Shown piece after piece: positions 4,201 through 53,056 of a stretch of DNA of 64,000 nucleotides. The stretch covers positions 20,001 to 84,000 of the forward strand of contig JAWQFJ010020122.1 in assembly GCA_034096865.1 (NCBI GenBank). The letters are read 5' to 3'. The DNA comes from Theodoxus fluviatilis. Taxonomy: Eukaryota; Mollusca; Gastropoda; Cycloneritida; Neritidae. Both the position numbers and the translations under genes were made by a program. Under the pieces are notes generated by a model. The model saw only the letters and a program-made list of their open reading frames with translations. It ran no database searches and was not told where the DNA came from. Each line of letters opens with the position of its first letter. Position 1 is the first letter of the stretch.

Positions 4201-7200
4201 AATGTCGACTTGTGTAGGGATAAAGGTGTTTATACTGTCACAGAACAGTCATTTTTGTCTCTTTCTTCCATCCCTCCCTTTCTCATTCCCCCTGCACCTC
4301 CCCCACCCCCCCCACCCCAGCCCCCCCACCCCACCCCACCCCACCCCAGCCCCCCCACCCCACCTCTCCACCTGTAGCTTCAACACCATCACGACTTGTG
4401 TCACAATGTTGTTGAGTGCTAGCAGACATACTTGTAAATCTCAGGGCTGCCTACCCATCCGGAAATTCCGTATTTTGTCCGGAAATGAAAAAAAATTGGC
4501 GAGCGTTCCTGAAAATACGGGAGTTTATTTTGCGTTCCGGAAATATCAAAATAAAAACTATATTAAAATAATTTCCAAAATCGTTGGCCTGTGGCTGTGC
4601 GCGAATCGTTTTCCGAAGCGGTCTACCGATGATTGCCGAATGGGTTTGTTCTGTAGTGCGCAGGCGCAGCGCGCGAAAATATTTCCGAAGATTGCCGAGT
4701 GACTTCGTTTTCGTACAGTGCGCAAGCGCAACGCACGAAGTGTTTTTCCGGAGAGTGCCGAACTTCTTCGTTTCCGGTATGTGCAGTGTTCATGTGCAAC
4801 AATGGCGTCCAAACGAAAGCCAAGCGATTGTGTTTCTGAATCATCGAAGAAACAGCGGAGGTCGCAGGTCTACATTCCAGCGTACACAGAGAAGTATCCA
4901 TTTATAGTCCGCGGCACCACTGACTCCACTGTCAAATGTACGACTTGTGATAAGCAGTTCAGCATCTCCAGTGGTGGCGCCAACGATATCAAAAGGCATG
5001 TTGAAGGCCCAATGCATGTGAAGAAAATTGAGGAGAAGAAGGTCGCAGCAGCGCAAAAACCTATCAGTCAATATTTTACACCGCCTCCTTCGAAAGTGTC
5101 CCAAATCGACATCGACGTAATTCGAGCTGAGGCGATGATGGTAGACTTGACAGTAGAACTGAACCTCCCAATGGCGGCATTGGACAAACTAAGTGTAGGT
5201 GTCAAGAAAATGTTCCCTGACTCCAAGATTGCCAAACAGTTCAGCTGTGCCAGAAGCAAGGGAACTGCCATTGTGAAAGAAATGGCAGCCAAGACAACAT
5301 TGTCTCTCGCTGAAAGGATGAAGCTGCAACCCTTCACAATTTCAACGGATGGAAGCAATGACAAGGGTGGTGTCAAGTTATTTCCACTAATTGTGCGAAC
5401 CATCGACCCTGACACAATGGAAGTGCGTTCAGACGCTCTCTCTGTCCCATCGATTGAAGGCTCAGCCACTGGTGTGAAGATCTTTGGTCTCATCAATGCT
5501 GAGTTCGTGGCGCACAACATTCCTTGGGATAACTGCCTGGCTTTAGGCTGTGACAATGCCAACGTCATGGTTGGAAAGGAGGCAGGAGTCTATGGGTGCA
5601 TGACAAAGGAACACAAAAATCTGTACTTGTCAGGGTGTGTGTGTCATCTGATCCACATTGCAGCAGAGAAAGGTGCAGGTTGTTTTCCATTCAGCCCAAG
5701 TCAGCTTCTGATTGACGTGTATTACTACCTGGACAAGAGCAGCTGCCGCCAGTCGTCCTTGAAGATGTTCCAGATTCTGCTTGATCTGAAGGAGGAGAAG
5801 ATGCTGAAGCATGTGACAACAAGATGGCTCAGCATTGGAAAGTGCCTGCCTCGAGTCATCAATTCTTGGGATGCGCTGTTTGATTTCTTCAGTCAGGAAG
5901 AAAAGAAAGCTGCCAATTCTTCAGCAAAGAAGAAAACTGGGGATTTGAAGAAGGTGTTTGCCTCCCGCAATAAACAAGTTGATATGCCTCTTCCTTGTAG
6001 ACATAATCAAGGTGTTCGAGAAAATAAACACAATGCTGCAGGCTGAGAAACCCATGATCCATGTCCTCAAGAGTGAGCTGCACAAGTTCTACAAAGACTT
6101 GCTGATTAGATTCGTCAAGCCCACAGCTATGCTGAACAAGGAAGTCATGGATGTGGACTTCTCATCACAGGAGAACATCAAGAGCAAAGCAGATCTCCTC
6201 TATGGGGAAGAGGCCAGACTCCTTGTGACAAGGGAACAGGAGAGAAATCCGGGTAGTGAGCGGTATGAGGAGTTTCTGCAGTGTGTTGTCAAGTTCTACC
6301 AAGCCAGCTGCACCTACATCAAGGAGAAGCTTCCCCTCTCTGATGAACTGCTCAGCCATGCCTCAGTTGTGGATCCATCCAAGCAAGTAGAGAGCAGCTT
6401 TGAAGACTTGGGGTACTTTCTGAAGAGGTTCCCCAAGCTGAAACCCACTGGAGTGACAACCTCTGACATTCAGCTGGAGTTCGCAAGGTACCAGTGCACA
6501 GACATCAGCAAGTGCATCCAAGAAAGAGACGACTCAACATGGTTCGCCATCTCCAAGCTGAAAGAAGGGGAAGACCTCCTCTTCCCACACCTCCCCATGG
6601 TTATGCTTGCCATAATGACAATCCCTCATTCATCAGCTCACTGTGAACGCATTTTCTCAGTAGTGAGAAAGAACAAGACCCACTTCAGAGGCAGCATGGG
6701 ATCGGACACCTTGGAGGCCTTGGTGGTGGCCAAGTCCAGGCCTGGACAAGCCCTTGACAGACACTACAGTGTCAAAGACCTGAAAGACCTGAAAAGTGCA
6801 TACTACCAGTCTTTGCCACAGTAAACAAGCTGCAGAACTATTGTATATAGTGTAAATAAGATCAGGTATGTTTTTTATCTTTTGGTCCCTGGTTAATGAT
6901 TAAGGTTGCTTTCTTTTTTTGCGCTGTCGCACGGTTTAATACTGAAAGCGGAACTGAAATACTGAAATTGGAACTTGGTAATACTGAAATCGAAAAAGGA
7001 GGGTAGGCAGCCCTGAAATCTGAGAAAAGCAGGTAAAGTGACTGTAATGTTTTATATGATAGAGAGACAGAATACAACAAAGGTGACTGTTCTGGGCTTT
7101 AATTCACAAGACAAAACAGGTCATCAACATTTTGAGTACTAAACACTTACTCAGGACAGATAATACAAAGACACAATACTCTAAGATTGGTGACAGGTAT

Positions 7201-10200: not shown

Positions 10201-12266
10201 GGCATGATGGTGTATGATGACAAGGCCTCAAAAAACATACATAGTGACTTGACCTTCCTTCAAGGTCAAGGTCACAGGAGTCATAAATGTGGTCTCAAAA
10301 ACAGTCATTTTTCACATTTTCCCAATTTTCTCCCACGTTATTAAGAATGGCGACCTTAGCTACAAGTGGTATATAGGTCAAAGCAAGCCCTATCTTTTGA
10401 TACCAGTTTGGTTGACCTTGCTTCAAGGTCAAGGTCACAGGAGCTCTTCAAAGTTGGATTGTATACATATTTTGAAGTGACCTTGACCCTGAACTATGGA
10501 AGATAACTGTTTCAAACTTAATAATTATGTGGGGCACATGTTATACTTTCATCATGAGACACATTTGTTCACATATCATCAAGGTCAAGGTCACTTTGAT
10601 CCTTATGAAATGTGACCAAAATGGGGTAGTGAACCACTAAAAGTGACTATATCTCATGGTAGAAAGTGCCAATAAGCACCATTGTGCTTCCTATGTCTTG
10701 AATTAACAGCTTTGTGTTGCATGACCTTGGATGACCTTGACCTTGGGTCAAGGTCACATGTATTTTGGTAGGAAAAATGTGTAAAGCATTTCTTAGTGTA
10801 TGATGTCATTGGTAGGTTTAGTTGTTTGACCTTGACCTTGAAGGTCACCTGAAGTTCAAGGTCATATAAAGGTCAAGGTCAAGCATGTGAGTCGTATGGG
10901 CTTTGCCCTTCTTGTTCATACAATGTTCTTGGGAGGTTAGTGTGCAAAGTCAACTTGGCTGTAGAATCATGACAGTTTAAGTTATCCAAGGCCTATTCTT
11001 TCACTACATGCAATATTCTTTCTTTCATGTTCTTAGCATTCAGTCCCTGTGGAATGATATATGAACAGCTTTGCTTTGTTGATTTTAAAAATAAATATCT
11101 TATAGAAAATTGTTTGGCATGTAGATGAAAGATACAAAAACTTTTAAAATCTGTCCTATTCATGAAACTTTGACAGAGTCAAGATCCCATTGCTGATGGG
11201 ATGGACTGGTATGTCAGTCTTTTATTTGCCATGGTTGCTAATCAACATCAACTGTAAAGAGTGATCAATGTATGCTGAACTGGCAAAGCACAGGGCAAGT
11301 ATGAAAGATGGCCTGGTTCATTCAGTTAAATCATTTGCAAAAAAGTTGAAGTAGTAATAGTGCAAAATGAACATAACAGAAGGATTTTAGTCTGCTGTCA
11401 TCAGAAAAATGTCCACATTTACCAATTACTGCTCCATGACTGGTGTGCTTGTTTCTCCTTTCCAGTCTCCAGTGTTCCTCCTGTTCCTGGACTGCGTGTG
11501 GCAACTGCTGCAGCAGTTTCCTGCCAGCTTCGCCTTCACAGAGACCTATCTGACCCGCCTGTGGGATGCTGCCATTTGCGGTCTCTTCAAGACCTTTGTC
11601 TTCAACAACTACCACCAGCGCCCCTTCAACTGCCAGCTCCTGGTGGCCTGGGAATGGCACCAGCAGTTTTCACAGGAGGACATTCTCCTCTTCAACAACC
11701 CACTGTACCTGCAGAACCCCAAGTTCAACCTGGCCAGCTCTATCAAGGAGGTACGGAGTTCACTGAGGCGGGCCCAACGCCACCAGCACCAGAAGAAATC
11801 ATACGCCCTCAAGCTGACCGAGTACTATGATGCAGAGCACCAACCACTGTTTGCGGACGATGGCCCCAAAGTTCTGAATCCAAGCTCTTTGGTGCCTATG
11901 CTTCGGCTGTACACTCAGTGCTACCTTCGCTGGTGCATGCCTGCACAGATCGTGGGGGGTGGGTCACCATGTGAGTACCTGCAGCACTGCTTGATGGTGG
12001 AGCAGATCATGGGCTTGCAGCACAGACTGACCTCCCTGCAGAGCCAGCTGCAGAACCAGGGCAGCCTTGGGCGCCTCCCTCGGCCAAAGTCGGACCTCAT
12101 CTTCAGCTTTGATGGGGTGACCTCCCAGACTCAGCTCACCGAGAGCCAGGTGACTTCTTCCTACCCCTTCACCCCTGGACCCGACTCCACCACACCAAGG
12201 CCCTCACTCCTCACCTACTTTGAGTACAGCGAGATCAACTTTGACTACACCGATGCGGAGGATTGA
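1116..12266 (+). CDS. MTMR10-like: Myotubularin-related protein 10/12-like pseudophosphatase (3' five exons)
   Basis: Five exons join in frame: 1116-1204, 3807-3934, 7641-7790, 9679-9851 and 11466-12266. All have AG acceptors and the internal ones have GT donors. Together they give 1341 nt, or 446 codons plus TGA. The product matches the myotubularin phosphatase-like domain of the MTMR10/11/12 branch. Diagnostic stretches are HCRTQQGFEKL, followed by an EW...GHPF block, and SPVFLLFLDCVWQLL, followed by the MTMR12-type C-terminal region. Active family members carry a CX5R loop (CSDGWDR). Here the equivalent stretch across exons 3 and 4 reads VIIREETSHDL with no cysteine, so the protein should not dephosphorylate phosphoinositides. 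MTMR10/12 relatives act as adaptors for active myotubularins. The N-terminus (PH-GRAM region) lies left of the window. Orthology to MTMR10 versus MTMR12 is not settled here. Confidence 0.9.
1290..3357 (+). mobile_element. 5'-truncated CR1/L2-like LINE
   Basis: A non-LTR retrotransposon fragment sits in the MTMR-like intron. Reverse transcriptase homology starts around 1319 (SAYRSGHSTETAL) and continues through the ORF at 1467-2537. A non-coding tail follows. It ends in a conserved GTAAAGCGCTTTGAGC...GCGCTGTATAAATAA motif and an (ATT)n tract at 3338-3357. The long 5' truncation and short 3' microsatellite tail are typical of CR1/L2-group LINEs. The superfamily call rests on general resemblance, not on a search. 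Confidence 0.85.
1467..2537 (+). pseudogene. LINE reverse transcriptase (C-terminal two thirds)
   Basis: The 356-aa open frame carries reverse transcriptase landmarks: a VPQGSVLGPVLF block and the YADDTQ catalytic box. A thumb-like C-terminal region with LDYCNALLYG and VWNSLPVSLR follows. The upstream part of the domain is in another frame. At about 1420-1430 the usual D-x-S-A-A-F-D-T-I-D-H motif is broken by a small deletion and runs into TGA, so the RT is not intact. The residue before VPQGS is Trp instead of the usual Gly. It is a dead fragment inside a host intron. Confidence 0.9.
3807..3934 (+). CDS. MTMR10-like: MTMR10/12-like, second exon in window
   Basis: A 128-bp exon coding MVEAVKEAGDIAEPKRVDLG..., which ends SYTKLKDICMT. 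The acceptor is TTTGTATGTTCAG and the donor is ACAG|GTGCCG. Phase matches on both sides: two bases from the previous exon complete Lys, and the last G joins AC of the next exon to make Asp. SYxKLxxxCM is a feature of the MTMR10/12 phosphatase-like domain. Confidence 0.88.
3935..4441. other. Intron with C-rich tract
   Basis: Intron sequence up to the hAT insertion. It includes a strand-biased C-rich stretch at about 4277-4372 made of CCCCA and CCCCC runs. No exon or other element is seen. Confidence 0.7.
4442..7015 (+). mobile_element. hAT-superfamily DNA transposon, nearly complete
   Basis: The 2574-bp element has perfect 15-bp terminal inverted repeats (CAGGGCTGCCTACCC at 4442-4456 and its complement at 7001-7015). 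A 6-bp direct repeat, AAATCT, sits immediately outside both ends. It carries one transposase gene, 4802-6824, in the same direction as the host MTMR-like gene. hAT elements usually make 8-bp duplications. Here only 6 bp match, as also in three other elements of this window. Confidence 0.92.
4802..6824 (+). pseudogene. hAT transposase, one frameshift
   Basis: Reading starts best at the ATG at 4802 (MASKRKPSDC). A C-x2-C...H-x-n-H zinc finger of BED type follows at about residues 50-75 (CTTCDKQ...DIKRHVEGPMH). Next come the hAT core with FTISTDGSNDKGG and LGCDNANVMVG, a CVCHLIHIAAEKG block, and the C-terminal dimerisation region (PHSSAHCERIFSVVRKNKT). The first frame runs to 6046. The rest is read in the next frame from about 5990-6010, so a single-base indel near 6000 breaks an otherwise intact gene of roughly 670 codons. 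The mutation looks recent because no other stop is present. Confidence 0.9.
7016..7640. other. Intron sequence, nothing recognised
   Basis: Remainder of the MTMR-like intron after the hAT insertion. It ends in a T-rich tract and the CTGTGTTGCAG acceptor. I see no exon or repeat. Confidence 0.6.
7641..7790 (+). CDS. MTMR10-like: MTMR10/12-like, third exon in window
   Basis: A 150-bp exon coding DSEKQFSHQDVTFYKDLEG..., which ends SYMARERSTVIIR. The acceptor is TGCTGTGTTGCAG and the donor is CAGAG|GTACAC. Its end corresponds to the strand that leads into the P-loop in active myotubularins. Confidence 0.9.
8481..9136 (-). mobile_element. 5'-truncated retroelement fragment nested in the repeat
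   Basis: Alignment with copy 2 defines this insertion exactly. It is flanked by the 8-bp direct repeat TCTTGAAT (8473-8480 and 9129-9136). The insert reads on the minus strand with a coding 5' part and a non-coding 3' tail without poly(A). The size and target duplication fit target-primed integration of a truncated retroelement. The family was not identified. Confidence 0.75.
8703..9128 (-). pseudogene. C-terminal module of a retroelement-type ORF
   Basis: The minus-strand frame encodes GRRPDGMTVFPF...LVWDATCSDSFAP, then RRKYASISERYHFVPFAVETTG and FLFQRISLSIVRGNAFAI, with a stop at 8703. The PD-x(13)-D spacing in RPDG...WDAT is compatible with a PD-(D/E)XK nuclease-like fold such as the endonucleases of R2/CRE LINEs. 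I have seen similar conserved tails in unnamed invertebrate retroelement ORFs. The start is missing because the element is truncated. The reading frame upstream of 9128 lies in the host repeat and is not part of the gene. Confidence 0.55.
9679..9851 (+). CDS. MTMR10-like: MTMR10/12-like, fourth exon in window
   Basis: A 173-bp exon coding EETSHDLCPLVSCLVQLCLD, then the HCRTQQGFEKL and EWVALGHPFQKR blocks. The acceptor is CGTCTTTGCAG and the donor is ATCAG|GTAATC. The HCRT..GF..L...EW...GH block is the best-conserved signature of the family. The missing P-loop cysteine is at the start of this exon. Confidence 0.93.
10051..10916. repeat. AGGTCA-rich dispersed repeat, copy 2 (unbroken)
   Basis: An 866-bp copy in the next MTMR-like intron, in the same orientation as copy 1. 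It starts TTTTTGACTCACATGCGAAG, has a (GGGC)n stretch near 10108-10135, and ends ...GTATGGGCTTTGCCCTTCTTGTT. It holds over a dozen AGGTCA or TGACCT motifs. Several read TCAAGGTCA, the extended half-site bound by NR5A/ERR-type nuclear receptors. Confidence 0.9.
10917..11465. other. Intron sequence, nothing recognised
   Basis: AT-rich end of the last MTMR-like intron, closing with TTTCTCCTTTCCAG. No repeat or exon was recognised. Confidence 0.6.
11466..12266 (+). CDS. MTMR10-like: MTMR10/12-like, terminal coding exon
   Basis: An 801-bp exon that starts SPVFLLFLDCVWQLLQQFPA and ends at TGA 12264-12266. It covers the last helices of the phosphatase-like domain (FTETYLTRLWD) and the C-terminal tail typical of MTMR10/12 (myotubularin-associated region), including LYTQCYLRWCMPAQI. 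Hydrophilic Gln-rich helices (MGLQHRLTSLQSQLQNQG) follow, and the end is acidic (YSEINFDYTDAED). The reading frame is continuous with the previous exon. Confidence 0.93.
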   Translation, partial: SPVFLLFLDCVWQLLQQFPASFAFTETYLTRLWDAAICGLFKTFVFNNYHQRPFNCQLLVAWEWHQQFSQEDILLFNNPLYLQNPKFNLASSIKEVRSSLRRAQRHQHQKKSYALKLTEYYDAEHQPLFADDGPKVLNPSSLVPMLRLYTQCYLRWCMPAQIVGGGSPCEYLQHCLMVEQIMGLQHRLTSLQSQLQNQGSLGRLPRPKSDLIFSFDGVTSQTQLTESQVTSSYPFTPGPDSTTPRPSLLTYFEYSEINFDYTDAED

Positions 12267-26312: not shown

Positions 26313-29300
26313 CTGCAGCACAGAACAAGGGTAATTCCATCAATCTCCACTTGGGATGATTTTGGCTTCAACTCAAAATAGGTGAAGAAGGTGTAAGTTG
26401 TCAGTGTTGCAGATTTACAATCCAGCTGTTCAACAAATCATCCATCTCTGCATTGCTTTGACAGCAAACCTCCAAGTATTACCATAAAGCTAAAAAGCGC
26501 TTTGAAAGAAAATTTCCAAGTGTTACCATAAAGCTAAAAAGTGCTTTGAAAGAAAATTTCCAAGTGTTACCATAAAGCTAAAAAGTGCTTTGAAATAAAA
26601 TTTCCAAGTGTTACCATAAAGCTAAAAAAAGCTTTGAAAGCTAAAAAAAAGCTTTGAAAGCAAATTTCAAGTGTTACCATAGAGCTAAAAAGTCCTTTGA
26701 AAGCAAATTTCCAAGTGTTACCATAGAGCTAAAAACACTACTTTGAAAGCAAAAAAACCCCTGTCTGGTAACAATGGAGAAAAGTCCCAAAATTGGGTAT
26801 TTGAAGAAATTTAAACTAATTTAGCTATGTTTTCCTGACATACTTACCAGTAGACAACCAGGGATATATGACCTTTCAACCTCGAAAACAGAATTTGCAT
26901 AATTCTTACCCACATGTGGCTGCCTGCATCGGCCAATCCGATTGCTTGAGACATAGCTAGGAAGCCCGTGGGCAAAGGGAGGTAACTCCCAATGCCTCGT
27001 GCCTGCAATGTCTATAAAGCTAGCAGACAGCCACGTTTCACCCTCTTTGACACTGCTGAGATAACCCGAGCAAATGCACCAACAGGGAGGTGGGTGGGAC
27101 AGTAAGTTGTCTACTGGTATGTCAGGAAAACATAGAAATTAGTTTAAGGGGGGACACGGTGTTGAAAATTAATAAAATATGATCAAAAATCGAGTTTTGG
27201 GTTTATCATCGATTCCGAGTCTACCATGTCTCGGGAACGTCTGTGTACAACCGATTGTGCGACTGAAGTTTCTAAATATTTAAAATCTTTTTTTTAATGA
27301 GGTACCCATCACGAGAATTGAGAAAAAACACTAACTAATCAGCCGAAATGCGCCTGTTGTAGTCCTAGGTTACGCCATCTTTCTTGCAAAGAAACGCCAC
27401 ATGCTTGGTACCGACGCGTAGCGCCATTTCTAGACTTCGCGCCACTCCAACTACCGGAACGAAAGGCTAGCTGCCGAAAGCACACGAAGCAGAAATCGGA
27501 AACTAGTCTGAACCAATGAAACGCTTCAAAAGAGAAGCCTCTGTCTATCCTTTGCTCTGATTGGTCGCTTAATCCGTGCACAGTGCGTGATCAGGGCGGA
27601 AGTGATGAACGGAAACAGCCGAAGCTAGCGGAAGTGATGAACGGAAACACCCGAAGCTAGCTTCGGCTGTTTTCGACATAGGAACGCGCAGCGTCTTTTG
27701 TATCAATCAACCAAGCGCAAGAATGCCGAGGAGGGATGCAAAGAAGTTTGCTACGCTGCATAGATTTGGGAAAAAGCCGAAGAAGAAAAGGAAGACAAAG
27801 GTAGACTTGTCAACAGTCTCCGGAGCGGGGAATTCGACAGCGATCGCTTCTATTTCGATCGACACCGCACCACGTGCGAGCGGCGATTCAGCGGTTACCA
27901 CACTCGAGTCGATCGAAACTACGCCTGGCGCAGCTGTTTCAAGGTTGCTCGCCTCCTCATCGTCCGCTCAAAAACGAAGACATGGAGTGGAAACCGACTT
28001 ATGTCCTGACTCCGGAGCTCGAGAATCGACAGCGCTTGCTTCTAGTTCTACTTCGACCGAAGATGCACCTCTCGCTAGTAGCGATTCGGCAACCTCCGCA
28101 CTAGCGTTTATCGAATCTGCTTCTGGCGCAGCTGATGTTGCAAAAGCAATCGCCTCCTCATCGTCAGAATCTGTCCCTACCAGTGCCAAGAAACTTCGTC
28201 TTTTCGAGAGCGAGACAAGAGAGCCAGTGTGTGATGATGAGAACGTGATCGTCAGCATGAGCATGATGAACAAGCTCGTCTCTGTGTTCCGCTGCCGAGA
28301 TTGTGACCAGCCGTTAACAGTGACCAAAAATCAGTCGGCGATGTTTGGATCAGCGAGCAAGCTGAAAGTGTTCTGCTCAGCATGTGGGAACACCATTACG
28401 GCGGTCAGGACCTCACCAAAGACAGGCACTCTGCACAATGGCTATGACATCAACCGTCGTCTCGTTGTTGCTGCCACCTCCATTGGGATTGGGTTCACCC
28501 AACTGAGACGATTTTTCGCTCTCATGAACATGCCCCCACCCATGCATCTGAAGACATGGCAGCTCTACCAGAAGACGCTGCATTCAGGAGTTCATCGGGC
28601 TGCTGATAGGCACCTTCAGGAGGCAGCTGAACAGGTTCGACTGATGTACTTGCAGTTGAAAATTAGTCAGCCAACTCCAGAAGGACGCCTAGATATTGCA
28701 GTTTCGTTCGATGGGAGCTGGCAGAAGCGTGGGCGAACATCTCACAATGGCATTGCAGCTGTCATCGAGATCTACAGTGGACTTGTTGTAGACTTTGTGA
28801 CCCTATCAAACTACTGCCATGGCTGTGAACTAGGGCCTGAGCCAGATACAGCACAATTCGAAGAGTGGCACAGAAACCATAAAAAGGATTGCCAGAAGAA
28901 TGTGCACTGTTCTTCCCAGGCTATGGAAGTGGAAGCTGCACTGATTTTGTGGAGAAGATCAGAGGCACTCCACAATTTCAGGTACATGGAGATGCTGGGG
29001 GATGGAGATGGGAAGGCCCATGCCAGAGTGAATGCTGCAAAAGTCTATGGTGAGGGGGTGCTTGTCAGCAAAATGGATTGTGTGAATCATGTGACAAAGA
29101 GAATGGGAACAGCTCTACGAAATCTTGTGGAAAAGAGAAAGGCCCAACATGCTCCAATTGGTGGCCGGGGTAAATTGACCGACCAACGAATTGCCAAGCT
29201 CACAAGCTACTATGGCAAGGCCATCAAGGAGCACCCAGGAGACCTAGATGGCATGGTGAATGCAGTCTGGGCTTCCTTCTTCCACACCCTGTCCACAGAT

Positions 29301-32300
29301 GATGACCCTCACCATGACAGGTGTCCTGCATCCAGTCCTGACCGAAGATCATGGTGCTTCCACAAGCGAGCACAGGAAGACGACAGGCTGCCTCCAACTC
29401 ACCCCCACCCTCTTCCTCGAGACATAGCTGAGGCACTTGTGCCTCTCTACAAGAGACTGGGAGATCCCCAGTTACTTCAGAGATGCCTTGCAGGCAAAAC
29501 CCAGAACTCGAATGAATGCTTCCACTCGTTGGTTTGGAGACTATGCCCCAAAGAAAGATGGGCAGGTCTCCGCACAGTGGATACTGCCGTTGCAATCTGC
29601 ATCCAGCGGTTTAACAAGGGCTCATCAGCACATCAGGATGTACTGGATGAACTAGAGTTGTTGGGGGAGTTGGCTGTGCAGAATGCAAGGAAGGAGGATG
29701 AAGAAAGGGTGAAGAAGGCAGTCAGGAAATCCACGAAGCAAGCCCAAGCAAGACGGGCAAGACTGGAGGAAGCGCATCGAGCAGAGCGCCAGCGACTCAT
29801 GAACCAGGAGGGAGTCCTGTATTCACCTGGACTTGATTGAATACTGCCTTGTGACTCTCTCTGATTCCCTAAGGAGTAATTCATTGTGACAGAACAATGC
29901 CAAACAAGTATTGTATCTTCAATGAAAATGTGTTTGTCACAAATGCTTTGTTTTTCCGCAGGTGATGCTTCTGGACCTGATGTATTGATACTTTGAGTTA
30001 AAATGTCAAGCTGAAAGTTTGCTATCATGATTAGAAATGAATTCCAATTTAAATAAGTCATGTTAGAACATTGTACCTATTATGGTTCATTTGCAGTGCA
30101 AGTTTATTCGTTCTCAAACTTTGCAGCCATTTTTCTCAAAATGTTGTTTTCTTTCTACGGCAGTAGTTTTGCACAAGAAATTAAAGTGACTTATGATAAA
30201 GATAGCTTGTTGAAATTTTTACTGTACATTTCTGAATGTATGTAGCATACAATAGGACCAGTAAGAAAACTGTAGCTTGGTAACTTTTTTTATATATAAG
30301 TTTAATCTCATCATGCCGAGAGTGTGTTTTTGTGCTGATAGTGCCACTTGTCACCAGACAAATTTCTAATTGTTGATGATACATTTTTTACATCCTATTG
30401 TGTAATATAGACCTTCTTCTTTGTTTACAATGATAGGTAATCATTAAGAAAATTGAATACAGGTATTTGGTAGAGTGTGCAAGATCACTCCCGTGTTTTT
30501 TTTCCCAGTGATTTTGTTATAACACACTAACAAATTAATCTGGAACAATAAAATTTGGTCTGAATATGCCTTACATTGTGTATGTTTTATGTACAAAATT
30601 TCATGAACATAGCTTTCATACTTGCTGAATAAATAATTTTTTTCTATAATCCCATTTTTCAACGTAGTGTCCCCCCTTAAATTTCTTCAAGTTTTCCCTC
30701 CATACTGACCAGTAGACAACCAGGGATATGATTGCCCAGCAATGGGTGGCGGTTGTGCATGAACACCTGACAACAACATTAAAACCACTCATCATCAAAC
30801 ACGGATAGCCGAACCCGCAACAACCAACTTGTTGATGCCAAAGGTGTCATTGAGACGACGAACTCAAACATCACGCAAGTAATGGCAAGTGAAAACACAG
30901 TCACTGCGCCAGAAGGCCGCCCTCATAAGGTGAGCCAAAGAGACATTCTTGGCAAATGTTACAGAGGTGGCAACCTTGCGGATTTCATGAGTCCTAGAGG
31001 CACCAGCAGGAGGATCAAGCAACGCATGCAATGCGTATCTAGCCAGACACCTCGGCGTGACTAAGTGTCAGGGGCAGAAACAGTCTCTGTTGCCGAAGAC
31101 GACAGGACTGAATTCGAGCCAGGTAACATTGAGTGCACGCACCGAGCAGTTCACCAGTCAGCTTCACCAGAATCGAGATGAGCCAGAGTACCGAAATCTC
31201 GACGCTCGGACAGTCGGAAAGTGAATCTTGAGTGTGACACCGAAACTCCTGCAGAAAAGACAGAGTACACAAGGCCAGCCTACCGTGAAAATGACAACCG
31301 AAGGTAAACCACGCAAAGCGTGGATATCCCCGATCCGACGCGCACTAGCTAGTGTCACTAAAACATTGTCCCCTGAGGGAGATGCTGGAAAACACAAGAT
31401 TCCAGTGATGCGAACCTGAACCAGAGAGAAAACGGAGAAGCAGAAAACCCATCCCACAGTGGAAGAGAGATCTGACGACGTGGGAACTAGCGTGAAACGG
31501 AATTAGCCATGTGAACCTGTGTTAGAAAGAAGCCAAGCAGAAAGTTTCAACAAGTAAACATTCGGATGGCCAATTCCCGAACGAGGCTGCACGAGAGTGC
31601 ACTCAGAGAGCCAGCAGATCAGGGAACCATGAAGCTCCAGGCCAGAATGGCGTGACCAAGATCATGCGAGGACGCTCCAGGGCGACTTGGCCAACACCCT
31701 CGGAAGAAGCCGCGTGGGAGGGAAAGCATAGACTTCCATGCCCGACCACGACCTAGCAAAGGCATCTCGGCCGAGAGCCTGTGGAACGTGCATAGGCGAG
31801 AAGTAACACGGCAAACGCATGTTGAACCTGGTGGCAAACAGATCCACCATGGGCTTGTCCCAGCAAAGCCACACCCGCTCTAGCGCCTGATGCGCTACAG
31901 TCCACTCTGTAGGCAGAACCTGATCCCTCCGGCTCAGGTGATCTGCCAGCACATTCAAATGGAAATGCCATGAGAATCAGCCCAAACCAGAATCTCCTCA
32001 GCTTTGAGAGACAGAGTCGTAGAGACTGCGCCTCCTTGGTGCCTGAGATAACTCAGGCATGTGACATTGTCACCCGAGATTGTCACGTGCCGATCACTCA
32101 ACATTGACACAATCCCTGGAGAGAGCGAAAAATCGCTTTCATCTCCAGAAAGTTGATGTGCAGCCGTGACTCGCTCGCAGACGGGAGACCGGACACCGAG
32201 GCCGTGTCTGTGTGCCCACGCCAACCGGTCCTCGAGGCGTCTGTGAACAGATAGACGATAGGACCCCTGGGTCGGCTAGGGACAGACGAAAGGAGCCACG

Positions 32301-49773: not shown

Positions 49774-50420
49774 CTACAGTACCTCACAGTCACTGATGTT
49801 CTTTGTTGTACTCATCAGTACAAGCCTTTGCTCTCTTGTGCATTGTGGAAGTACCCGGAAATCATGACAACACTCATCAGAGTTCATCTTCACTTGCAAG
49901 AAAGCTGCCAGGGTGTCAAGAGCCAGACTGCTTCTGGCATCTGTGTGGATCTTTCTCACCATTGAGAACACTCTCTCACTGTCAGCATTGCTGTGGGGCA
50001 GACACAGAAGAGAAGGCAACACTTTGCCAAGCAGAGGGAACCTAACTTCTCCAAAAGGTGTTTTCATTGTGAGGATCTCCTTCCAGACAACATCCATTTT
50101 TTTGGCTTTTCCATTCTGATCCAAAAGTACCAGCTCACCCTCACCCAGGAGTTGAAAGTCTTCCCACTCCTCTTTCAGGTCTTCCTGGTCAACATTATCA
50201 GCAAATTGCATTGCCAGTGTCACAATGTCAGTGTATGGCAGCTGCTCTCTCTTGCTGGGGTCCAGGACCTGAAGATGTTCCAGGATCTCATCTCCAAATG
50301 GGAACTTGTTCAACATTTTCTGGACACAGGCTGTGTAGAACTATCGAACATCATGCAAGAACTTGTGTTCTGTGGCTAGTGGGCTGTCAATTCTGTAGCC
50401 AGGCATCGTTTGATGATTTG
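49774..50420 (-). pseudogene. hAT transposase, C-terminal part
   Basis: The minus strand encodes MPGYRIDSPLATEHKFLHDV, a TAG stop, then FYTACVQKMLNKFPFGDEIL, and the hAT dimerisation region LPHSNADSERVFSMVRKIHT. It ends at a stop at 49774. It belongs with the N-terminal piece at 52504-53056. The middle of the protein, including the catalytic core, is absent. Confidence 0.85.
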
Positions 50421-50444
50421 TGTTGCCTTCCCCGGCGAAATGAC

Positions 50445-50593
50445 ATTCTAGAAATTTCTAAAATTCTAGAACATTCTAGAACATTCTAGAATGTTCTGGA
50501 ATAAATTTGATGGAATAATTCTAGAATTCTTTAATTCCAGAATAATTCTAGAAAATTCTAGAACATTACTTTTTCTTAGAATATTATTCTAGA
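50445..50593. promoter_or_regulatory. Left HSE-like array (TTCTAGAA)
   Basis: About eight TTCTAGAA or TTCTGGAA palindromes. From about 50463, four follow each other at exact 10-bp steps: TTCTAGAACATTCTAGAACA, then TTCTAGAATGTTCTGGAA. This equals the heat shock element pattern of alternating nGAAn units (TTCnnGAAnnTTC). Whether HSF binds is untested. Confidence 0.7.
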
Positions 50594-51205
50594 ACAAGAC
50601 CATTCAAAGAATATTATAGAAAATTGTAAATAAAACGATATTTAAAAAAAGAAGTGAACAATAAAGCATTTCAACACACACGCAAGACACTTTAGTGATC
50701 ACACACAGAATATAAGATTTAGTGTTAAATCACCTAAAGTTCATTCACAGTTCTTAATTGTCCACAATTTTCATTTTCTCAGATCACAGAACAGTTCTAA
50801 TCATAACTCGCTGAGTCGCTCACAGTTGCAGTGTGCACATTTCTTTGCAATACACAATAGTGATCTTGATTAAAACTCAGAATTTAATAATAGAGCAACT
50901 AGTGTTTGTCACGGCCCGAGTGGATGACTACTGATGGGAATTGTAGTCCCGTGCGATCATGGATCCAATATACAATGTCCATGGGAGCGACAATTACGCG
51001 TCTGATCGTACCCTTGCCTTGTTTACGTCAAGATCTAAAAATAGCATTAGCAAACGGAAGTGGCCGACTTATCGCAATGCCTGCTGGGAAGCAGAGAGAC
51101 CGCGCACTTCTATCGCTTTCAAACTTGTGCGAAATCGGACCAGTTTTAGCTGTGTTGTGGTGATTTTTGTCGAGATTTCGACTGACGTTCTGATTTTTTC
51201 GCGTC

Positions 51206-51811
51206 ATGGCTGACTCCGCATCGGATGAAGGCGAAGGAAGCGACATTGATGCTGATTTTGACGATGTCTGATCAGACTGATGCGAGAGATGTTGGAAGAG
51301 GAATCGTCGGAGGAAGAGTTTCTAGGCTTCCAAGGATCGTGGCAGACAGAAAATTTTCGTTCTCGTATGCGACACGCCTTTCGACGCGCTCAAGGAGTAA
51401 AGATTGACATCACCTCGGACGCAAAACCTCTTCATGTCTTCTCTGATCTTCACAGACGCGATCATGCGCGATGTGGGAACGCTTGTGACAGAGACACATC
51501 GGTATGCTGAGAGAGAGAGAGAGAGTGAATCCACCTCCTACCAGCTCCAAGTGGGCACTTGTGACAGTTCCTGAGATTAAAACTTTCATCGGTCTCTCCA
51601 TCGCAATGGGTGTGCATCGCTTGCCTGAGATTCGTGAGAAGCAAGATTTTTGCCGACAGAACGTCAGAAGTGGCTTTTCCGTCGACGTAGTTTTCGAGAC
51701 TAAGTTCCCCAAGGCAATCGAGAGACAGATTCCTTTCTCTGTGGCGGTACCTGCATCTACAATTAGGTCCCCAATAACTTTCTTCACTGCTCACAAGAAT
51801 TGCAAGGTATG
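51206..51811 (+). pseudogene. piggyBac transposase N-terminal fragment
   Basis: ATG at 51206 (MADSASDEGEGSDIDADFDD, then a stop). In other frames follow MLEEESSEEEFLGFQGSW, GVKIDITSDAKPLHVFSDL and SKWALVTVPEIKTFIGLSIA with MGVHRLPEI. Acidic start, then a FxGF/W segment, then P-L-x-x-F-S-D-L and V-T-V-P-E-I-K-x-F-I-G-L are standard piggyBac landmarks. At least two frameshifts are present and the DDD catalytic domain is missing, so the element needs a helper. Confidence 0.8.
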
Positions 51812-52080
51812 AGGTACAATTATGAAAGGGATTTGATTGATAAAATCAGTTGGATGGAAATTGGTGATTCAGATATTATCTGAATCTCTGATGTGTGCAG
51901 CTGTTTCAAACACCATCTGATGAGTACCATTTCAAAATCTGTATTAAATAATCTACATTTAACAGAGATTGGTTTGTTGTTTTTTAACTAAATATTCTGT
52001 TTGAATGTTTTTGCTAAACAATTCCAAAATACTCTCATACCTAATTATTCTTCTCAATAATATAATTATTGTTCTTGAAT

Positions 52081-52490
52081 TGTTCCAGAATGTGCAGTCA
52101 GTTTTCTGGAATTTCATCTTGAATTGTTCCAGAAGTATCTGTCAGTATTCTAGAATATTCTGGAATAACATTCCAGAATATTCTGGAATACGTACTAAAA
52201 TCTTCTAAACTTAGAAGATATAATGGTGTTCTGGAATAATTCCAGAATTATTCTAGAACTGTGTTTCCTTCTTCATCTGTAAGTATTCAAGAACATTCAT
52301 TACCATTCTAGAATATTCTAGAATATTCTAGAATTATTTTCTAGAATATTCTAGAAAATATTCTAGAATATTTCCTTGAATTCTCATTTAAGCTTCTGTC
52401 ATTATTCTAGAACATTGGACTCTGGTTCCAGAAGTCACATTCTAGAATCTTCTGGAACATTTCTAGAATTGTTCTGGAACGATTCCAGAC
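52081..52490. promoter_or_regulatory. Right HSE-like array
   Basis: Some 20 or more TTCTAGAA, TTCTGGAA and TTCCAGAA palindromes. There are several runs in perfect 10-bp phase, for example around 52145-52190, 52310-52370 and 52438-52485. The array runs almost to the terminal CCGTTTCGCCGGGG. Array density is higher than on the left. Confidence 0.7.
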
Positions 52491-52503
52491 CGTTTCGCCG
52501 GGG

Positions 52504-53056
52504 TAATGGTCCTCTTACAGGAGAAGGCTTGGGCCGCTTTCGAGTCAGGGAACATCTTTTTCATGAGAATGGTGAAATGGTCGGCGGTTGTCGCTGGCAG
52601 GTTGTGTTTTGCAAGGAATTGGCAGAAGAGAATCTCTGACTGAGACACGGTCTTTCCTTGGTCCAAGTTGTTAGCCTGCCTCCGGAATGTAACATCGAGA
52701 GGGATGTGCTGTTTTGCTTTTTTAAAAGCTTCTTTGTGCTTTGAAGATGCAAAGTGGCGAACTATGTCAAATCGCCCCGACGCCGATACCTTTACCGACC
52801 GTTTGCATGACTTGCAGTAAGCAAAATCAGAGCCTGCATCCGAATTGCTGATCTGCCCCTGAAACTCTTTGTCCGTTTCCCACTCACACTGGTATTTCGA
52901 AGAATACCGAGCCCTTTTCGCAGGCGGTTTCAAAGAAGACGCCATAATTGCGCTTTGAATCTCTTTGTTGTAGCACACTACGCATGCGCGAGAAGCGACT
53001 TCCGGCCCCTGACTTTCGCAAATCGCGCACTTACCGCGAGGCTTGTACACTTTCAC
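52504..53056 (-). pseudogene. hAT transposase, N-terminal part
   Basis: The minus strand reads MKVYKPRGKCAICESQGPEV, with a better start at MASSLKPPAKRARYSSKYQC. A C-x2-C...H finger follows (FAYCKSCKRSVKV, IVRHFASSKHKEAF), then MKKMFPDSKAAQAFSCKRT up to the piggyBac-like insertion. It shares the MFPDSKxAxxFSC motif with the hAT transposase at 4802. It belongs to the same clade. Confidence 0.85.

Follow-up and report, generated by a model that had tools for sequence, protein, structure and literature searches.

TTCnnGAA arrays at both ends of a transposon

The element at 50430–52503 probably belongs to a non-autonomous CACTA/TRC transposon family, in which conserved arrays of the palindrome TTCnnGAA likely serve as sites for the transposition machinery and are predicted to bind heat shock factor (HSF) as well. 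It is one copy of a multi-copy family, likely of the CACTA type (TRC, animal En/Spm), without a working transposase gene of its own. The element lies in a stretch of 64,000 nucleotides from Theodoxus fluviatilis, the window, to which all positions without a further label refer. The features of the element and its insertion site are the following:

50430..50440, plus strand: left terminal inverted repeat (TIR) CCCCGGCGAAA, a perfect match to the right end; in 22/22 elements, which were chosen by that word
52493..52503, minus strand: right TIR TTTCGCCGGGG, the perfect 11-bp partner of the left TIR
50446..50594, no strand: left subterminal array of 10 TTCnnGAA sites (heat shock element (HSE)-like), containing an unbroken 8-unit run from 50464
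52072..52479, no strand: right subterminal array of 24 TTCnnGAA sites (HSE-like)
50983..51762, plus strand: relic of a piggyBac, nested, truncated and frameshifted; it covers the 5' region and the N-terminus of the transposase
50428..50429, no strand: left flanking dinucleotide TT
52504..52505, no strand: right flanking dinucleotide TA
52504..53056, minus strand: open reading frame, N-terminal part of a deleted hAT-like gene, the insertion target
49774..50316, minus strand: C-terminal hAT part with the dimerisation domain (PF05699, E 4.4e-8), likely from that deleted gene

With TT on the left and TA on the right, the window copy is without a clean 2-bp duplication. The hAT frame read by eye across the insertion is KATQIIKRCLATELTA, and this frame suggests a 1-bp duplication at the window copy. 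The open reading frame at 52504..53056 gave no hAT domain match of its own but resembles, by eye, a second hAT open reading frame at 4718–6046; this second hAT occupies 4718–6824 of the window. Elsewhere in the window we noted an exon of a myotubularin-related host gene (11409–12266, PF06602) and, at 27723–29840, an uninterrupted 705-aa frame of a Mutator-like transposase (PF20700, E 5e-65). The latter shares 53–60% identity with proteins of Babylonia areolata and Batillaria attramentaria, and 63–69% with others.

A preliminary description of this DNA had reported HSE-like arrays in both subterminal regions, and the counts bear this out. TTCnnGAA occurs 34 times in the two arms, i.e., 10 times in the left (counted over 50430–50640) and 24 times in the right (52060–52503), and not once in the 1,419 bp between them. 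By comparison, 2,000 dinucleotide shuffles gave a mean of 0.22 sites for the left arm (maximum 3) and 0.36 for the right (maximum 4). All 19 exact occurrences of TTCTAGAA in the window are inside the element, and words with at most one mismatch number 36 inside the element compared with 27 in the remaining window. Among the arm words that are one mismatch off TTCTAGAA, 15 of 17 differ in the two centre positions only (p = 7e-8). The centres of the 34 sites are TA (19), TG (7), CA (6), TT (1) and AA (1).

The alternation of GAA and TTC units, described earlier as HSE grammar, was also found. Nine runs of 3–8 units consist of at least three alternating nGAAn units with 2-bp gaps, which is the HSE criterion, and the longest unbroken TTC/GAA alternations in 5-bp steps comprise 8 units at 50464 and 6 units at 52306. 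Moreover, 156 of 167 sites from five subfamily representatives, which are related and not independent, have a pyrimidine-purine (Y-R) centre.

Of the exact 10-bp phase that had been proposed, the excess of 10-bp steps stands, but the strict phase holds only in part. Nearest neighbours are exactly 10 bp apart in 10 of 32 cases, the commonest step, and 11 bp apart in 6 of 32, the next; steps of 8 or 9 bp are absent. Under random placement, 10-bp steps averaged 3.0 and steps of 10 or 11 bp together 5.7, and 0 of 5000 placements matched the observed 10 and 16, respectively. Over long range, the right-arm sites of the window copy have a period near 11.1 bp, not 10, and their peak in the range of 9–12 bp was reached by 0 of 3000 random placements. 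For the left arm, no period reached significance (p = 0.16; p = 0.13 when sites were kept at least 10 bp apart). A 10-bp helical period common to both arms was tried and discarded, not being significant between 9.75 and 11 bp (p = 0.26). The arms give tandem-repeat matches; an Rfam search of the window returned 0 matches, as did a search for the array in public viral and prokaryote contigs.

The arrays are conserved among genomic copies

We searched 965 Mb of the genome in 19,668 contigs. The exact word CCCCGGCGAAA occurs 399 times compared with 152 times for the reversed control word, which suggests a copy number of the order of at least 100. Among the TIR matches listed, 19 stretches contain facing pairs 1.9–3.1 kb apart, and one of these stretches has two elements. 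Together with one further stretch with a 0.7-kb pair and the window copy, this gave 22 TIR-bounded elements, selected by TIR pairing irrespective of arrays. The matches listed also include facing pairs at C1253, C1310, C1317, C1328 (two) and C1369, which are outside the 22.

The check on conservation that had been suggested for other copies gave a uniform outcome: all 22 TIR-bounded elements have arrays at both ends, with 20–39 TTCnnGAA each. Sites at 16, 34, 44, 54, 64, 89, 105, 116, 126 and 157 from the left end recur at the same or nearly the same positions in other copies. When 20 more stretches were added, the set comprised 65 distinct CCCCGGCGAAA ends. For 61 of them the inner 200 bp contain no fewer than 5 sites; on the outer side this applies to 3 of 65. 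The four ends with fewer inside sites are L005 (0), L008 (3), L039 (0) and L041 (2).

Flanking dinucleotides are identical in 12 of 22 copies, where shuffled pairs gave a mean of 2.6 and a maximum of 10 (20,000 shuffles). A matching 2-bp duplication is absent in the other 10, the window copy included; two of these 10 share one junction, that of L018 (C491:43556–48269), where two array elements follow one another head to tail, separated by one base. The left arms of L013, L017, L019 and L020 have 10- or 20-bp unit deletions, i.e., the site number drifts and the motif stays. At L029/L030 (C210:20337–30600), an array element is split by a large insert, and there is a second insert too. This 10.26-kb C210 copy was considered as an autonomous candidate and rejected: it is non-autonomous and contains a large insert, whose 856-aa frame is reverse transcriptase-like by eye.

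We compared the variability of the core letters TTC/GAA with that of the remaining array letters. For the left arm of the 22 copies (first 170 bp), core cells mismatch in 1 of 1290 cases versus 104 of 1970 for other cells. For the right arm (last 160 bp) the figures are 9 of 1056 versus 94 of 2104, with the poorly aligned row L012 adding to the right-arm mismatches. The copies are related, and columns are therefore the safer unit. Counted in this way, 1 of 60 core columns is variable in the left arm versus 18 of 90 others (p = 4e-4), and the right arm, over its last 160 bp, gives no significant difference (9/48 versus 21/96, p = 0.42). Across the five subfamily representatives, variable core columns number 4/66 versus 14/88 over the left array span (p = 0.049) and 4/144 versus 25/209 over the right (p = 0.0012). 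Comparison with C1386 alone gives 1/66 versus 16/201 (p = 0.047) and 2/66 versus 23/158 (p = 0.007). Earlier figures for the other columns (60/204 and 40/278) were too high, since they included divergent sequence outside the arrays, and were dropped. The TTC/GAA letters are less variable between subfamilies than their neighbours, and the constraint is moderate.

Assignment to CACTA/TRC and a candidate transposase

SmTRC1, an animal relative of CACTA, has according to PMC1636069 a TIR starting with CCC, and 7 of 14 copies show a 2-bp duplication; PMC4298943 describes such TRC elements as well. Since the present family likewise has a CCC-starting TIR and a 2-bp duplication in about half of its copies, we searched the genome for Transposase_21 (PF02992). 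Nine candidates were scored and at least three places found in the 965 Mb, with the control genomes silent for this family. The best place, C1386:83007–83486, lies in a 640-aa frame between stops (E 9.3e-13); the other two are C9750:21986–22459 and C6384:20417–20743.

The C1386 gene sits inside a CCCCGGCGAAA end (C1386:79552) with 11 array sites. This array is in register with the left arm of the window copy; over 296 bp the two share 93% identity. No far end of the C1386 element appeared within 8.4 kb; the TIR word at L052:6638 has two mismatches and lacks a neighbouring array. The link between transposase and array thus comes from one end, at one of three Transposase_21 places; by a rough estimate, 3 genes × 399 TIR words × about 7 kb / 965 Mb, about 0.01 such coincidences would arise by chance. 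None of the three PF02992 places, and none of the piggyBac-type PF13843 places listed, lies within the 22 elements. Open frames were listed for the window copy, L011 and L021; a DNA-binding protein belonging to the element was not found.

The family has several marks by which CACTA/TRC elements are recognized: a TIR starting with CCC (22/22, selected by that word), a 2-bp target site duplication (12/22, the window copy being among the 10 without) and a partner encoding Transposase_21 (C1386, one end seen). Its subterminal repeats are asymmetric, with 10 sites on the left versus 24 on the right. According to PMC2613891, CACTA subterminal repeats are asymmetric cis sites bound by TNPA; in En/Spm the TNPA-recognised repeats are cis-determinants for excision, and defective copies that keep them move in trans. 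Against the CACTA assignment stand the 10 of 22 copies without the 2-bp duplication and the second C1386 end, not seen in 8.4 kb.

We propose that the Transposase_21 gene at C1386, or a relative of it, would supply the transposase in trans. A TNPA-like protein, or the transposase itself, may be loaded onto the palindromes at intervals of about one helical turn, and the loaded proteins would then pair the two transposon ends. The match to consensus HSEs would be secondary. The motif is kept in copies without a transposase gene, and its selection hence most likely comes from transposition and not from heat induction, as far as the moderate constraint allows this to be read. The right-arm period of 11.1 bp suits a helically phased protein array better than the 5-bp grammar of HSF. 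Three uses had originally been offered for the arrays, namely heat induction, the scattering of heat-responsive enhancers and binding by the transposition machinery; of these, we favour the last.

Could the arrays be working heat shock elements?

The rule for HSEs given in PMC8379338 is that TTC and GAA are fixed, often with pyrimidine-purine between them, and that the GAA-TTC linker is free. The arrays agree with it in their alternating TTC/GAA units, their Y-R centres and their varied linkers. They could hence be working HSEs, i.e., trimers of the host HSF would bind them on heat, open chromatin, raise transcription or transposition and spread heat-responsive enhancers. Judged from the DNA letters, we regard this as a real possibility but a doubtful one; it is compatible with the role in transposition proposed above. 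The textbook sequence with its runs of 3–8 units argues for it, as do the Y-R centres and varied linkers described for HSF in PMC8379338. There is also a precedent: Helitrons of C. elegans carry HSEs bound by HSF-1, and Helitron1_CE is heat-induced, as reported in PMC6927752 and PMC6765114. However, steps of 11 bp (6/32) are out of phase with the 5-bp units of an HSE, the overall period of the right arm is near 11.1 bp, and the arrays stand at both ends, with their motif letters kept in copies that have no gene to induce. A profile search of the genome for HSF (PF00447) found 0 places, and the control genomes were likewise silent.

The HSE match could be a coincidence of the taste of a palindromic protein, or real double use. 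The Y-R centre is the exact preference of HSF as given in PMC8379338, and a role in transposition alone does not predict it. A CACTA transposon might have adopted the host HSE as its transposition site, an idea that we hold to be rather unlikely. The arrays would then be read by an end-pairing protein as well as by HSF, heat-activated HSF would act as end-binding factor or competitor, jumping would be tied to heat, and at least 100 copies would scatter super-HSEs. Among the open-licence papers listed we noticed no precedent for HSE arrays at CACTA or piggyBac ends. With a copy number of this order, there would be many strong HSF-like arrays in one animal genome. Its cis-acting ends match consensus HSEs, which makes the family a clean test case for whether transposon subterminal repeats are ever host transcription-factor sites, and whether the spread of a transposon also spreads a stress response.

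A local expansion of palindromes or satellites without function would account for some gains and losses of 10- and 20-bp units among the copies and for the tandem-repeat matches in the arms. We consider such an origin very improbable, as arrays are found at both ends of all 22 copies, their core letters are less changeable than the rest of the array, and the one-mismatch variants are confined to the two centre positions in 15 of 17 cases.

A piggyBac relic nested in the element

The preliminary description had taken the whole element for piggyBac-like. This identity was not upheld: TTAA, the piggyBac target site, flanks 0 of 22 copies, and it is the internal relic alone that is piggyBac. A read-through fragment of the relic matches a piggyBac-derived protein of the fish Coilia grayii (E 9e-29); the relic reaches E 3.9e-4 against PF13843, under the family cut-off, and the relic fragment gave no match by sequence against PDB. 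A DDE catalytic domain was not found in 50983..51762.

PF13843 matches in the genome number at least 119. At four places (C3086, C4612, C2916 and C16645) 564-aa open frames match the relic fragment at 86%, and at a fifth, C15281 (641 aa), the match is 85%. The first four have one PF13843 score in common, and C3086 and C4612 were read in sequence. The C3086 protein comprises 557 aa from the first ATG (PF13843, E 7e-96). Both copies, 99.5% identical to each other, define an intact piggyBac of 2.66 kb that starts with TTAACCCATTCG and ends with AATGGG; TTAA stands at either end of C4612 and to the left of C3086. In the copies read, the ends are TTAA|CCCATT without arrays, and the C3086 stretch contains neither CCCCGGCGAAA nor an array. 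This piggyBac (L050, L051) is young and has the form TTAA|CCCATTCG...AATGGG|TTAA. Nuclear-receptor-like TCAAGGTCA repeats near the intact piggyBac were considered and rejected, being located in the flanks of one copy and absent from the other.

The relic is 83–84% identical in nucleotides to positions 53–823 of the intact piggyBac. Array elements match positions 2–823 at most, and the match ends at 823 in 21 of 22. L011 and L014 contain the left tip of piggyBac about 655 bp inside the array element, and the 737-bp copy L023 has the arrays and lacks the piggyBac piece. The element hence has a piggyBac relic and no piggyBac transposase gene of its own, with the left end of piggyBac nested in two copies. 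From this nested end we infer that a piggyBac likely jumped into an ancestor of the array family, was deprived of its right-hand portion and has been passed on with the family ever since. Such a relic can mislead the classification of the surrounding element. An alternative reading, in which the element is a diverged piggyBac that has unusual ends and has lost its transposase by deletion, is scarcely credible: the N-terminal fragment is clearly piggyBac, and PMC10813416 reports non-TTAA target sites for some piggyBacs, but as 4-bp variants, and the absence of TTAA from all copies, the array-free TTAA|CCCATT ends of intact relatives 85–86% identical over the fragment (copies read), the nested left end in L011 and L014, and L023 all speak against it.

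Comparison with known systems

The C. elegans Helitrons are alike in being a transposon family with clustered HSEs. They differ in that they are rolling-circle elements, and in that HSF-1 binding and heat induction are shown there; here, HSF binding is predicted. Terminal arrays are not mentioned in the available text of PMC6927752 and PMC6765114. The transposases of piggyBac and piggyBat likewise bind palindromes near their ends, as described in PMC11707139. The intact piggyBac of this genome, in contrast, is unlike the array element in its ends, its target site and its lack of arrays.

Plant CACTA elements (En/Spm, Tgmt*) resemble the family in their asymmetric repeated motifs at both ends beside a short TIR and, according to PMC2613891, in that defective copies are mobile if the motifs are retained. 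Their motifs, as given there, have a GC-rich and an AT-rich part, unlike the motif found here, and Tgmt* makes a 3-bp duplication, again unlike here. With the TRC or animal CACTA elements of the En/Spm type (SmTRC1, Spongebob), the family shares the CCC start of the TIR, the 2-bp duplication and a Transposase_21 partner (PMC1636069, PMC4298943, as far as the elements are described there). The present family differs from them in its TIR CCCCGGCGAAA, in its long arrays, whose 8-bp palindrome is identical to the HSE, and in the piggyBac relic carried by 21 of its 22 copies.
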